Below are positions 49,603 to 53,818 of a stretch of DNA of 64,000 bases, piece after piece. Each line of letters starts with the position of its first letter. The first letter of the stretch is position 1. The notes beneath the pieces were generated by a model. It was not told where the DNA came from. It searched no databases and saw only the letters and a program-made list of their open reading frames with translations. The stretch spans positions 1 through 64,000 of the forward strand of contig CAIKVT010000031.1 of NCBI GenBank assembly GCA_903830945.1. Reading direction: 5' to 3'. A program made the translations under genes and the position numbers. The stretch comes from an uncultured Elusimicrobia bacterium. GTDB lineage: Bacteria > Elusimicrobiota > Elusimicrobia > UBA1565 > UBA9628.

Positions 49603-50199
49603 TCAGTGAGCCTTCGGACTTTTTGGAAAAAGTCCGCTCTCGATGGCCGCGCACCAGGCGTGGATGACGGCCGCATGAACCTCCTGGATGCGCGCGGTGT
49701 CGGTCGATGGCGCCCGGACGCATACGTCGCAGAGGTCTTTGAGACGGCCCCCACTTTCTCCGGTCAGGCCGATGACCGTGAGCTTGCGGCGCCGTGCCGC
49801 GGCCGCGGCTTTGAGCACGCTAATCGAGTTGCCCGAGGTGGTGATGGCCACGGCCACGTCGCCGGGCAGGGCCTGGGCTTCGAGCTGGCGGACGAAGACC
49901 TGGTCATAGCCATAGTCGTTGCCGATAGCGGTCAGGTCCGAGGAGTTGACGGTCAGGGCCAGGGCGGGTAGGGCCGGGCGGTCGCGCTCGAATCGGCCCA
50001 CCAGTTCCGCGGCGAAATGCTGGGCGTCGGCGGCTGAGCCGCCGTTGCCGAAGACCAGGGCCTTGCGCCCCTTGCGGTAGGCGGCGAGTAGAAGCTCAGC
50101 CGCGGCCGCAATCTCCGGAGTCAGGCGCGCGGCCGCCGCTAGAGTGCGGCTCGATTCACGCAATCGGGATGCGATGAGTGCTTTAAGCGCCTTGGGCAT
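49603..50199 (-). CDS. gmhA: Phosphoheptose isomerase GmhA
   Basis: A 198-residue SIS-domain isomerase that converts sedoheptulose 7-phosphate to D-glycero-D-manno-heptose 7-phosphate, the first step to ADP-heptose. LVFGNGGSAADAQHFAAELVGRFERDRPALPALAL (about residues 48-82) and ITTSGNSISVLKAA are characteristic, along with a C-terminal IQEVHAAVIHAWCAAIE. It pairs with the adenylyltransferase directly downstream. It overlaps the accC end by 17 bases. Confidence 0.93.
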   Translation of the reverse strand: MPKALKALIASRLRESSRTLAAAARLTPEIAAAAELLLAAYRKGRKALVFGNGGSAADAQHFAAELVGRFERDRPALPALALTVNSSDLTAIGNDYGYDQVFVRQLEAQALPGDVAVAITTSGNSISVLKAAAAARRRKLTVIGLTGESGGRLKDLCDVCVRAPSTDTARIQEVHAAVIHAWCAAIESGLFPKSPKAH

Positions 50200-51541
50200 G
50201 CCGTTCCTCCTGGATGGTGTCCACTAAATTGGTGTCGAAATCGCCTGACTGGAACTTCGGGTGCGCCAGGACCCGGCGATGGAAGTCCGCGGTGGTCGGG
50301 ATGCCGCCCACGCGCAGTTCGCCCAAGGCCCGTAAGGCCCGGCGGATGGCTGCGGGTCGGTCTGCCGCGTGCACGATGAGCTTGCCCAGCAGGCTGTCGT
50401 AGTACATGGGCACGGTGTAGCCGGCGTAGATGTGGGTGTCTAGGCGCACACCCGGCCCGCCGGGCAGGCGCAGTTCGCAGATGCGGCCCGGTCGCGGGGC
50501 GAATCCGTGGTCCGGATCTTCCGCATTGATGCGGTGTTCGATGGCGTGGCCGCGGATCTCTGAAGCTCGGTCCTGATCGAAGGACAGCGGCTCGCCTGCG
50601 GCCAGGCGGATCTGTGTGGCCACCAGGTCCAGGCCGGTCACGCATTCGGTGACCGGGTGTTCTACCTGCAGCCGCGTGTTGACCTCGATGAAGTAGAACT
50701 TTCCATCCGGGGCGAGTAGGAATTCCACGGTCCCTACGCTGGAGTAGCCCGCGGCCTTGGCCAGGCGCACCGCCGCGGTCTGCATGGCCTGGCGGGTCGC
50801 GGTCGGCACGGCCGGCGATGGGGACTCTTCGATGAGCTTCTGGTGGCGCCGCTGTACGCTGCAGTCGCGCTCCGGGAAGGCGACCACGCCGCCCGTCCGG
50901 TCGGCCGCGATCTGGATCTCCACGTGGCGGGGTCTCTCGATGAACTTCTCGATGTAGACCGACCCGTCTTTGAAGGCCGTCGCCGCCTCGTTTTGGGCCA
51001 GCCTCACCGCGGCTTCGAGGTCGTCAGGGTGGCGCACGAAGCGCAGGCCTTTGCCCCCGCCGCCGGCCGCGGCCTTGACCATGACTGGAAAGCCGACGGC
51101 TTGGGCTTCCTTGAGGAATCCCTGGGTGATCGTGCCTGCCGTGCCTGGTACTACCGGGACTCCGGCCTTATGGGCTAGGACCTTAGCCGCGCTCTTGTGC
51201 CCGAGCTTGCGGATGGCTCCGGGTTCTGGGCCGATGAAGGTCAGGCCGTGGTCCGCGCAGGACTGCGCGAAGTCCGCGTTTTCGGCCAAGAACCCGTAGC
51301 CGGGGTGGACGGCATCGGCGCCAGTGATTTTGGCCGCGGCCAGCAGAGCCTCTACGTTGAGGTAGCTCTGCGGAGAGGGGGCGGGCCCGATGCAGACGGC
51401 CTCGTCGGCCAGGTCTACGTGCAGGGATTCCCGGTCGGCTTCGGAGTAGACGGCTACGCTGGGGATGCCCAGCTCTCGGGCGGCGCGGATTACGCGTACG
51501 GCGATTTCACTGCGGTTGGCGATGAGAATTTTTTTGAACAT
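50183..51541 (-). CDS. accC: Biotin carboxylase subunit of acetyl-CoA carboxylase
   Basis: A 452-residue ATP-grasp enzyme that carboxylates the biotin on AccB. It begins MFKKILIANRSEIAVRVIRAA. ATP-grasp loop VKAAAGGGGKGLRFVRH, the bicarbonate/biotin region FIERPRHVEIQIAADR and ERDCSVQRRHQKLIEESPSP, and the metal site FIEVNTRLQVEHPVTE are intact. HAIEHRINAEDP has His where most enzymes have Cys, which is a minor variation. The catalytic centre looks functional. It is unexpected that the neighbouring AccB-like protein lacks its biotin lysine. Confidence 0.95.
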   Translation of the reverse strand: MFKKILIANRSEIAVRVIRAARELGIPSVAVYSEADRESLHVDLADEAVCIGPAPSPQSYLNVEALLAAAKITGADAVHPGYGFLAENADFAQSCADHGLTFIGPEPGAIRKLGHKSAAKVLAHKAGVPVVPGTAGTITQGFLKEAQAVGFPVMVKAAAGGGGKGLRFVRHPDDLEAAVRLAQNEAATAFKDGSVYIEKFIERPRHVEIQIAADRTGGVVAFPERDCSVQRRHQKLIEESPSPAVPTATRQAMQTAAVRLAKAAGYSSVGTVEFLLAPDGKFYFIEVNTRLQVEHPVTECVTGLDLVATQIRLAAGEPLSFDQDRASEIRGHAIEHRINAEDPDHGFAPRPGRICELRLPGGPGVRLDTHIYAGYTVPMYYDSLLGKLIVHAADRPAAIRRALRALGELRVGGIPTTADFHRRVLAHPKFQSGDFDTNLVDTIQEERHAQGA

Positions 51542-51543
51542 GT

Positions 51544-52911
51544 TCACCTCGGTGCGCCAGGGCGCACCGTCCCTGACGGGCTGGAGTTCTTCTTTTCCGG
51601 AAGGGTCGGAGCGTTGAGAGCGGCCTGTCGTTTGGTGCGGATGTAGTCGAGGTCTTCTGGTTTGGCGCAGACTCCGACGGCGGTCTGCAGATCCGCGGTC
51701 GCCTCGGCGCTTTGGCCCATGGCGATGCGCGTGTCGGCGCGGGCCAGGAGCAGATCGCATTGGTCGGCCGGCGCCAGGTCCGGGAAGGCCAGCAGGGCGT
51801 CGTACTGGGCGACGGCCTCGGGATATTTTCGCAGGGCGTTCTTATAGGTGTCGCCTAGGATGGCATGGAGATGGTAGAGGCTTTTGAGGGACAGCTTGGA
51901 GGGATAGACCCGGCTCAATTGCAGGGCGGCGGAGCATTCCCGTTCCGTCTCCGCTGGGACTTTCCTGTAGTAGACCGCCTCGCAGAGATAGCCTCGGGCC
52001 ATGGGGTCGCGGGGGTCGATATTGACCGCCTCCTGGGCGAGGATGAGCGCCATGTCCGGGTCGTTGCGTGTGAAAGAGTCCTCAGCCCTCTGCAGGAGGT
52101 TCCAGTTGTAGGGACGCACCCAGCGGCCGTCCTCGAGAAGGAAGATGAGGATGTCTTCGACCGGCGGTTTGTTGGAGACCTGCAGGCGGTACTTGATCAC
52201 CGCAGCCCTGGGCTCGAGGCGTGCCAGCTTGATGGCGGACCAGGTCCAGGGCGTGGCCTCGCGTCCGGACCGGAATTCGTCTAAAGTACAGTGGGCCTGG
52301 GAATCGTGGGAGAGGAGCGCATAGGCAGCCGGGAGGTTGTCGGCGCTTAGGGCGTTGAGGTACTGGGTCGCGGCGCGGGGGATGGCGCTCTGGGGCTTCT
52401 GGTAGTCGTAGTAGAGGAACGCCGCCGCGGTGCATGTGGCCGCGATCGGTCCCCAGAAGAACATGCTTCGGTGGGTGTCCCGGCGGTGCAGGCGGGTCAG
52501 CGAGGCTTCGGTGGGCGACGGGGGGGGGACGTACTGGCCCTCTGGGATGGGGGCTGGGGCGCCGGGGTCGCGACGCAGGGCTTGCGGGATGGATAAACCG
52601 GGCGGAGGCAGGACGACATTGAGCGGCTGGCTCTTTGGGGAGGAGTTGGATTTTGCGGTGCGTCGCAGGGCGGTCTGGGGTGGTCCTTCCGGCGCGGAGC
52701 TTGCGTCGGAAGGAGGCTCGGCCGGGGCGGGTGCCAGTATCAGGGGCGTGCCGCAGCGGTCACAATAGTTTTTTGCCACGGCGTTCTTGAAGTTGCAGTT
52801 GCCGCATATCTTGGATAGGGAGCCCTGGCATTTCGGGCAGGCATAGCCCGGCGCGGGCAACTCGAACCCGCACTTGGTGCAGACTATATGAGCGAACCCG
52901 GCTGTGGACAT
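51544..52911 (-). CDS. Zinc-ribbon, single-helix, TPR protein between accB and accC
   Basis: A 455-residue protein. The N-terminus has two zinc ribbons (C11, C14, C25, C28 and C36, C39, C50, C53), then a Pro/Ser-rich linker. One membrane helix at about 148-168 (MFFWGPIAATCTAAAFLYY) is followed by a soluble domain that starts AATQYLNALSADNLPAAYALLSHDS (resembling a DUF4878/NTF2-like head) and several TPR-type helices (about 265-420). The zinc ribbons should face the cytoplasm and the TPRs the outside. Its place between acetyl-CoA carboxylase genes is unexplained. Confidence 0.65.
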   Translation of the reverse strand: MSTAGFAHIVCTKCGFELPAPGYACPKCQGSLSKICGNCNFKNAVAKNYCDRCGTPLILAPAPAEPPSDASSAPEGPPQTALRRTAKSNSSPKSQPLNVVLPPPGLSIPQALRRDPGAPAPIPEGQYVPPPSPTEASLTRLHRRDTHRSMFFWGPIAATCTAAAFLYYDYQKPQSAIPRAATQYLNALSADNLPAAYALLSHDSQAHCTLDEFRSGREATPWTWSAIKLARLEPRAAVIKYRLQVSNKPPVEDILIFLLEDGRWVRPYNWNLLQRAEDSFTRNDPDMALILAQEAVNIDPRDPMARGYLCEAVYYRKVPAETERECSAALQLSRVYPSKLSLKSLYHLHAILGDTYKNALRKYPEAVAQYDALLAFPDLAPADQCDLLLARADTRIAMGQSAEATADLQTAVGVCAKPEDLDYIRTKRQAALNAPTLPEKKNSSPSGTVRPGAPR

Positions 52912-52928: not shown

Positions 52929-53312
52929 TCAGCGCTCCAGGAAGAAGAGCGGCTGGCCGTATTGGACCGCCTGGCCGCAGGAGACGAAGACTCGGGCCAC
53001 TCGTCCCGCACTGGGCGAGCGCACTACATGGGGCTGGCCTGCGCCGGTCTCGATTTGGCCCAAAGCGTCGCCCTCCTTTACGGAGAGGCCTTCATCGCCG
53101 AGTTTTGGCTGGCCCGGCGCATTGGATTGGAACAGTCCTACCGCCAAGGCGCAGACCGGGATAAAACGGCTGGCCGGGAGTCCCGGCGGCGGCGCCGCCG
53201 GGACGGGGCAGGTCGTTAGTTCGAAGCCGAAGGAGCCGTCGTTGTAACTCACGGTCGCGAGGTCGGTGGCTTTGAGCCATTCCATCACAGGCTGGAGTCG
53301 TTGACTCTTCAT
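52929..53312 (-). CDS. AccB-like biotinyl-domain protein lacking the biotinylation lysine
   Basis: A 127-residue protein with the AccB layout: an N-terminal helical segment (MKSQRLQPVMEWLKATDL), a Pro/Ala-rich linker, and a biotinyl/lipoyl-type barrel (about 50-127) that ends QAVQYGQPLFFLER, like real AccB. At the site that should read EAMKMM, residues 88-93 read ETGAGQ, so the lysine that carries biotin is replaced (A91). Flanking barrel sequence and length are normal, so this looks like real divergence rather than a frameshift. GGAGG lies eight bases before the ATG. It may be a structural or regulatory partner of AccC, with another AccB elsewhere. Confidence 0.75.
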   Translation of the reverse strand: MKSQRLQPVMEWLKATDLATVSYNDGSFGFELTTCPVPAAPPPGLPASRFIPVCALAVGLFQSNAPGQPKLGDEGLSVKEGDALGQIETGAGQPHVVRSPSAGRVARVFVSCGQAVQYGQPLFFLER

Positions 53313-53818
53313 GATTCGGTCCTCCGGGACGCGGGTTTGCGCCGCTGGGTTTTGCGGCGGTGGGATTGTTTGGTCCGCAGAAGGTTCTGCGGGTTGGGTG
53401 GCAGCAGCCCCGAGGCGATGGGGTCGAAGGCCGCGGGCAGCATGCGGAAGACGGTGGTCTTGGTGACGTGTCGGCGTCCTGTGGCGGGGTTGAGATCTAC
53501 AAGGTAGAGTGCTGTGTCCTTGCCGCTGAACTCGATCATGACCTGGCGGCAGGCGCCACAGGGTTTGGCCGAGCTGGCCACCACGCATACGGCCTTCAAG
53601 GCCCGGTGCCCGTGCGCCACGGCATTGAAGATAGCGACGCGTTCGGCGCAGATGCTCAGGCCGTAGGAAGCGTTTTCAACATTTCCGCCTGAGAAGATGC
53701 GGCCGGTCTCGGTGAGGACCGCGGCCCCCACGCGATAGCGGGAATAGGGGCAATAGGCGCCTTTTTGGGCGGTGATCGCGGTCTCGATGAGCCGGATGAT
53801 GGGTTTGGTCAGTTTCAT
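53309..53818 (-). CDS. cdd: Cytidine deaminase
   Basis: A 169-residue zinc-dependent deaminase that converts cytidine/deoxycytidine to uridine. AYCPYSRYRVGAAVLTETGRIFSGGNVENASYGLSICAERVAIF includes the zinc ligand CAE, and PCGACRQ supplies the other two Cys; this is the tetrameric three-Cys type. After about residue 130 the chain has an unusual Arg/Lys-rich tail (QSHRRKTQRRKPASRRTES) that might bind nucleic acid. The stop overlaps the AccB-like start by four bases. Confidence 0.9.
   Translation of the reverse strand: MKLTKPIIRLIETAITAQKGAYCPYSRYRVGAAVLTETGRIFSGGNVENASYGLSICAERVAIFNAVAHGHRALKAVCVVASSAKPCGACRQVMIEFSGKDTALYLVDLNPATGRRHVTKTTVFRMLPAAFDPIASGLLPPNPQNLLRTKQSHRRKTQRRKPASRRTES

Follow-up and report, generated by a model that had tools for sequence, protein, structure and literature searches.

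The locus raises the question of why a gene resembling accB, in the same operon as an intact accC, encodes a protein without the lysine to which biotin would be attached, and of what such a protein may do. The window, that is the whole stretch of DNA analysed here, comprises 64,000 nt of a contig from an uncultured Elusimicrobia bacterium. The gene, hereafter accB2, and its neighbours are arranged as follows.

52929-53312, minus strand: accB2, accB-like gene (pseudo-BCCP) without biotin site, 127 aa, assigned from its ORF, Pfam and profile matches and fold
53211-53312, minus strand: N-terminal domain of AccB2, residues 1-34, a helix and a beta hairpin, collinear with the AccB N-terminal domain
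52932-53165, minus strand: C-terminal barrel-sandwich (biotinyl-domain) fold of AccB2, residues 50-127, with the clade signature YGQPLFF at the C-terminus
53034-53051, minus strand: former biotin hairpin of AccB2, residues 88-93, ETGAGQ (EAMK in AccB), tip variable in the clade
51544-52911, minus strand: gene for a protein with a double zinc ribbon, one hydrophobic segment and a TPR-like part, between accB2 and accC
50183-51541, minus strand: accC, intact biotin carboxylase
53309-53818, minus strand: cytidine-deaminase-like gene directly upstream of accB2, named by sequence inspection only

The ORF, its strand and limits, and the reading ETGAGQ at residues 88-93 were correctly given by the first-pass annotation. 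The first ATG of accB2 overlaps by 4 bases the stop of the cytidine-deaminase-like gene, so that the frame fits a tight operon, with the order cytidine-deaminase-like gene, accB2, zinc-ribbon/TPR gene and accC. The description of accB2 as lying next to accC thus holds for the operon, the immediate neighbour being the zinc-ribbon gene, as the same annotation had also said; this gene was found in the expected place. Its product carries four CxxC motifs, a hydrophobic segment near residue 150 and a TPR-like C-terminus. Elsewhere on the same strand of the window (47343 to about 48900), an ORF contains three near-identical tandem repeats (VYGTAQFQPGGSDAWFFARPGQPLPAGSL...) and resembles FecR-type domains by eye.

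The AccB ancestry of AccB2, proposed at first from the barrel and its ends, is borne out by profile and fold comparisons. Its C-terminus scored above the curated cut-offs of both Biotin_lipoyl_2 and Biotin_lipoyl in Pfam, and a profile of 30 orthologue rows retrieved as top PDB match the E. coli AccB chain of the AccC complex, 4hr7_B (E 1e-11). The AlphaFold2 model (mean pLDDT 82) has the E. coli BCCP domain 1bdo as best fold match, with a TM of 0.85 by target length and an rmsd of 1.7. A Pro/Ala linker joins this barrel to the short N-terminal domain, which is predicted with moderate confidence (pLDDT about 62-80) and which on its own matches E. coli AccB weakly, with 2.7 bits; in profile-profile comparison with AccB1, the second AccB found across Elusimicrobiota (see below), the alignment extends over both domains with a probability of 99.5. 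Identification as an HlyD/RND membrane-fusion adaptor was rejected: HlyD_D23 scored 14 bits, under its cut-off of 30, and neither a long hairpin or coiled coil nor a membrane anchor is predicted in these 127 aa.

At the position where AccB reads EAMKM, ETGAGQ is found, with no lysine at the tip or beside it. The first-pass annotation had placed an alanine at the biotin-lysine position; the lack of a lysine stands in either register, while the alanine itself is a choice of register (A91 or G92), since the hairpin in this family is one residue longer than in AccB. Without a biotin site, AccB2 can no longer carry the carboxyl group. Lipoylation, suggested by ETGK-like motifs in some relatives, was discarded for the window protein, which has no lysine to accept it.

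That accB2 might simply be decaying, or reflect an artefact of assembly, was considered because the motif is absent and because its score against the AccB equivalog TIGR00531 is far under the cut-off (21.9 versus 115.2 bits), a threshold that the genome's own AccB1 also misses somewhat, with 97.7 bits. This explanation has a negligible probability, and a pseudogene or sequencing error was rejected, as the same state recurs in independent assemblies of many species. A full-length orthologue was present in 33 of the 38 genomes in the relatives set, all of the same order, the weaker matches in the other genomes being AccB1 or a more distant AccB2. None of the 30 aligned orthologues has an interrupted frame, and none contains AMK. 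Within the genus, the window sequence and the other five all read ETG(A/V)G with no lysine, and the 57 biotin-less rows of the clade described below likewise lack AMK, which excludes a sequencing error. The claim that the loss is real in a frame of normal length was therefore upheld, and of the two observations that had been named as counting against it, an error restoring the motif and a lysine in close relatives, neither was made. Pairwise dN/dS values in the genus (NG86) are similar for AccB2 (0.21-0.45) and AccB1 (0.19-0.39), which indicates that AccB2 is under purifying selection. The AccB2 profile matches 146 of the 147 genomes of the class and the AccB1 profile 142 of 147, each profile also catching the other paralogue in some genomes.

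Two AccB paralogues are indeed found across Elusimicrobiota, AccB1 at an orphan locus and AccB2 linked to accC. All 57 inspected copies of AccB1 keep EAMKV, the 30 copies of a first set as EAMKVFN and the 27 further loci in other families and classes as EAMKV. The accC-linked AccB2 of other classes reads EAMK or ETMK in 16 of 18 cases and EAMR in two. Within the class to which the window belongs, (A/C)MK is kept in AccB2 of families f6, f7, f9 and f14, apart from one f9 copy with EAMQ, and the motif is lost in families f1-f5, f10-f12 and f15. Three accC-linked AccB2 copies, with EAMR at L267:1614-2057 and L279:2502-2978 and EAMQ at L140:2876-3367, have the rest of the motif intact and apparently represent separate losses, each in a genome with an intact AccB1.

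In a tree computed without the hairpin columns, the 57 biotin-less rows form one clade (support 100/99). AccB2 rows that bear EAMK make up its sister group (90/78), and AccB1 lies on the opposite side (100/98); only the f5 row, very divergent (branch of 3.4), is of unsure position. The simplest reading is a single loss of the biotin site, in an ancestor common to most families of the class. A search with the pattern YGQPLFF, which selects for the clade and does not provide a random sample, returned 73 named loci, all in records titled Elusimicrobia or Elusimicrobiota (or their sub-groups) or bacterium bins. None has AMK at the hairpin; in L160 an AMK string occurs outside the hairpin, which itself reads DTGAEQ. 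Four other hits, from Kapaibacterium and Clostridia, do carry AMK.

Conservation within the clade further documents what has been kept. Across its 57 biotin-less rows, the positions W12, T16, D17, L18, G59, G67, G85, G103 and L122 hardly vary and YGQPLFF is strongly conserved; AccB1 differs at several of these positions, with F at W12, C at G85 and S at G67. The hairpin tip (residues 89-96) is in turn variable and changes in length by one residue. New near-invariant residues together with a variable tip argue that selection has acted on AccB2 for a role other than carrying biotin. That it might still carry a group, either biotin or lipoate on a displaced lysine or some other cofactor, has been weighed because the glutamate preceding the lysine position is kept in 47 of the 57 rows and because some sister families have a lysine near the tip, outside of a methionine context (EVGK, EMNK, ETGK). 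Modification can be excluded with certainty only if no lysine remains, as in the window AccB2; yet the whole genus lacks a hairpin lysine, the tip gains or loses a residue, AccB1 encoded in the same genomes has the motif unchanged, and a single protein of the BPL/LplA/LipB family, taken as the biotin ligase, was detected in the genome. A carrier role is thus very improbable.

Of the 73 named loci, 67 have an accC downstream of accB2: in 32 it follows immediately, in 34 the zinc-ribbon gene intervenes and in one it is more distant. Most other loci have the same organisation, directly or past the zinc-ribbon gene. The position of this zinc-ribbon/one-TM/TPR gene exactly between accB2 and accC, in several families, could mean that AccB2 is an adaptor tethering AccC to the membrane through the zinc-ribbon protein. 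However, about half of the Elusimicrobiota loci, including many from gut lineages, have no such gene, so that tethering cannot be the general function; as an explanation for AccB2 it is improbable, if less so than cofactor carriage. One genome of the same genus (G005, 92% complete) has no AccB1, AccB2 or AccC, absences in metagenome bins being bounded by their completeness. This joint loss of both AccBs and AccC, though a single case in a genome of that completeness, is telling. De novo malonyl-CoA synthesis may have been lost in G005.

The partner genes were sought in the host genome (84 contigs, 99% complete). AccC of the window was described at first as retaining its catalytic motifs and proved intact: it scores 642.6 bits, above the TIGR00514 cut-off of 626.5, and the active-site lysines, glutamates, Asn and Arg of E. 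coli AccC were all found, shifted by 0-3 residues relative to the E. coli numbering. A second AccB with the motif, whose presence the first-pass annotation had proposed to check, does exist: AccB1, of 189 aa with IEAMKVFN, is encoded at G000:C24:48055-48624, an orphan locus between pnp-like and ftsK-like genes. The same check for accA and accD had the opposite outcome, as no separate gene for either was found in the host genome and its three carboxyltransferases are of the MmdA/PccB type, including those at G000:C26:64674-66134 and G000:C1:68006-69448; the carboxyltransferase of acetyl-CoA carboxylase (ACC) thus appears non-canonical in this lineage. A third biotin domain, with DSMKIEF, occurs with a second AccC and a carboxyltransferase on contig C14. 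There, the cluster L052:435-13666 comprises acyl-CoA dehydrogenase, carboxyltransferase, second AccC, BCCP and HMG-CoA-lyase-like genes and looks by inspection like one for leucine/isovalerate degradation (methylcrotonyl-CoA carboxylase). The housekeeping ACC would probably consist of the window AccC, the orphan AccB1 and some PccB-type carboxyltransferase, AccB2 being additional to these.

Overall, these data are best explained if AccB2 serves acetyl-CoA carboxylase as a non-catalytic subunit, a pseudo-BCCP, acting in the manner of the plant BADC proteins but with an independent origin, a reading to which we give a probability of roughly two in three. AccB2 would be an ancient AccB paralogue tied to accC in which the biotin site was lost once, biotin being carried for the enzyme by AccB1 from the orphan locus. 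Its N-terminal domain and barrel would still dock on AccC, on AccB1 or on both, and the docked protein would assist assembly of the biotin carboxylase-carrier complex, hold it together or tune it, as BADC does in plastids. The suggestion in the first-pass annotation that the protein has a non-enzymatic role as a subunit, or forms part of an unusual carboxylase assembly, is thus supported, physical membership in the complex being what we infer from the genes. As to the direction of the effect, an assembly glue seems more likely than an inhibitor, because near-universal retention in the class better fits a structural part.

The most serious competitor, still an unlikely one, is that AccB2 is mainly a regulator, sensing free AccC, AccB1 or the biotinylation state and controlling its own operon. 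E. coli AccB has been proposed to autoregulate accBC transcription despite having no DNA-binding motif (PMC11602165), a proposal that regulation by AccB2 would extend, and accB2 does lie upstream of accC in the same operon. Against this, no DNA-binding domain was found in AccB2, and conservation is equally strong in the N-terminal domain and in the barrel, although a regulator acting through its N-terminus only could dispense with the latter.

If the pseudo-BCCP reading is correct, bacteria too equip their ACC with a carrier look-alike that plays no part in catalysis and governs assembly or output. That a bacterial phylum has independently evolved such a BADC-like, biotin-free BCCP as a fixed ACC subunit is, in our estimate, somewhat better than an even proposition. 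For annotation, an accB-like gene beside accC in the class to which the window belongs should not be taken as encoding the biotin carrier. Compared with AccB/BCCP (TIGR00531; 4hr7_B, 1bdo), AccB2 shares the two-domain layout, the barrel-sandwich fold and the linkage to accC, but it has no EAMK, a shorter linker, W-x3-TDL and YGQPLFF as clade signatures, and a score under the TIGR00531 cut-off. Epsilon-type (AccE) small subunits belong to actinobacterial acyl-CoA carboxylases, and AccB2 would resemble them in helping to assemble a bacterial acyl-CoA carboxylase without taking part in catalysis; AccE subunits are not known to be BCCP paralogues.

The closest parallel is found in plants: BADC is a paralogue of BCCP that lacks AMKL, associates with both BC and BCCP and aids assembly, its role as complex glue or as inhibitor being disputed (PMC11926652). 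The same source calls non-catalytic BCCP look-alikes unique to the plant enzyme and cites bacterial noncatalytic 'glue' subunits (PMC11926652); no bacterial precedent for a biotin-less BCCP subunit was found in the open-access literature. A small bacterial protein would offer a simple system for settling the glue-versus-inhibitor question, and this second case, apparently of independent origin, shows what persists after loss of the biotin site. BADC and AccB2 have both kept the barrel, lost the biotin motif and retained a true BCCP alongside. They differ in that AccB2 is bacterial, adjacent to accC and only 127 residues long, and in that the plant enzyme has CT-alpha/CT-beta whereas the AccB2 genome has PccB/MmdA-type carboxyltransferases. 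For AccB2, whose binding to BC and BCCP is putative, operon linkage and one joint loss are what was observed. Since the biotin-less clade nests inside Elusimicrobiota AccB2, in a tree built without plant BADC sequences, AccB2 would work like BADC without being a member of that family, its origin being apparently independent.
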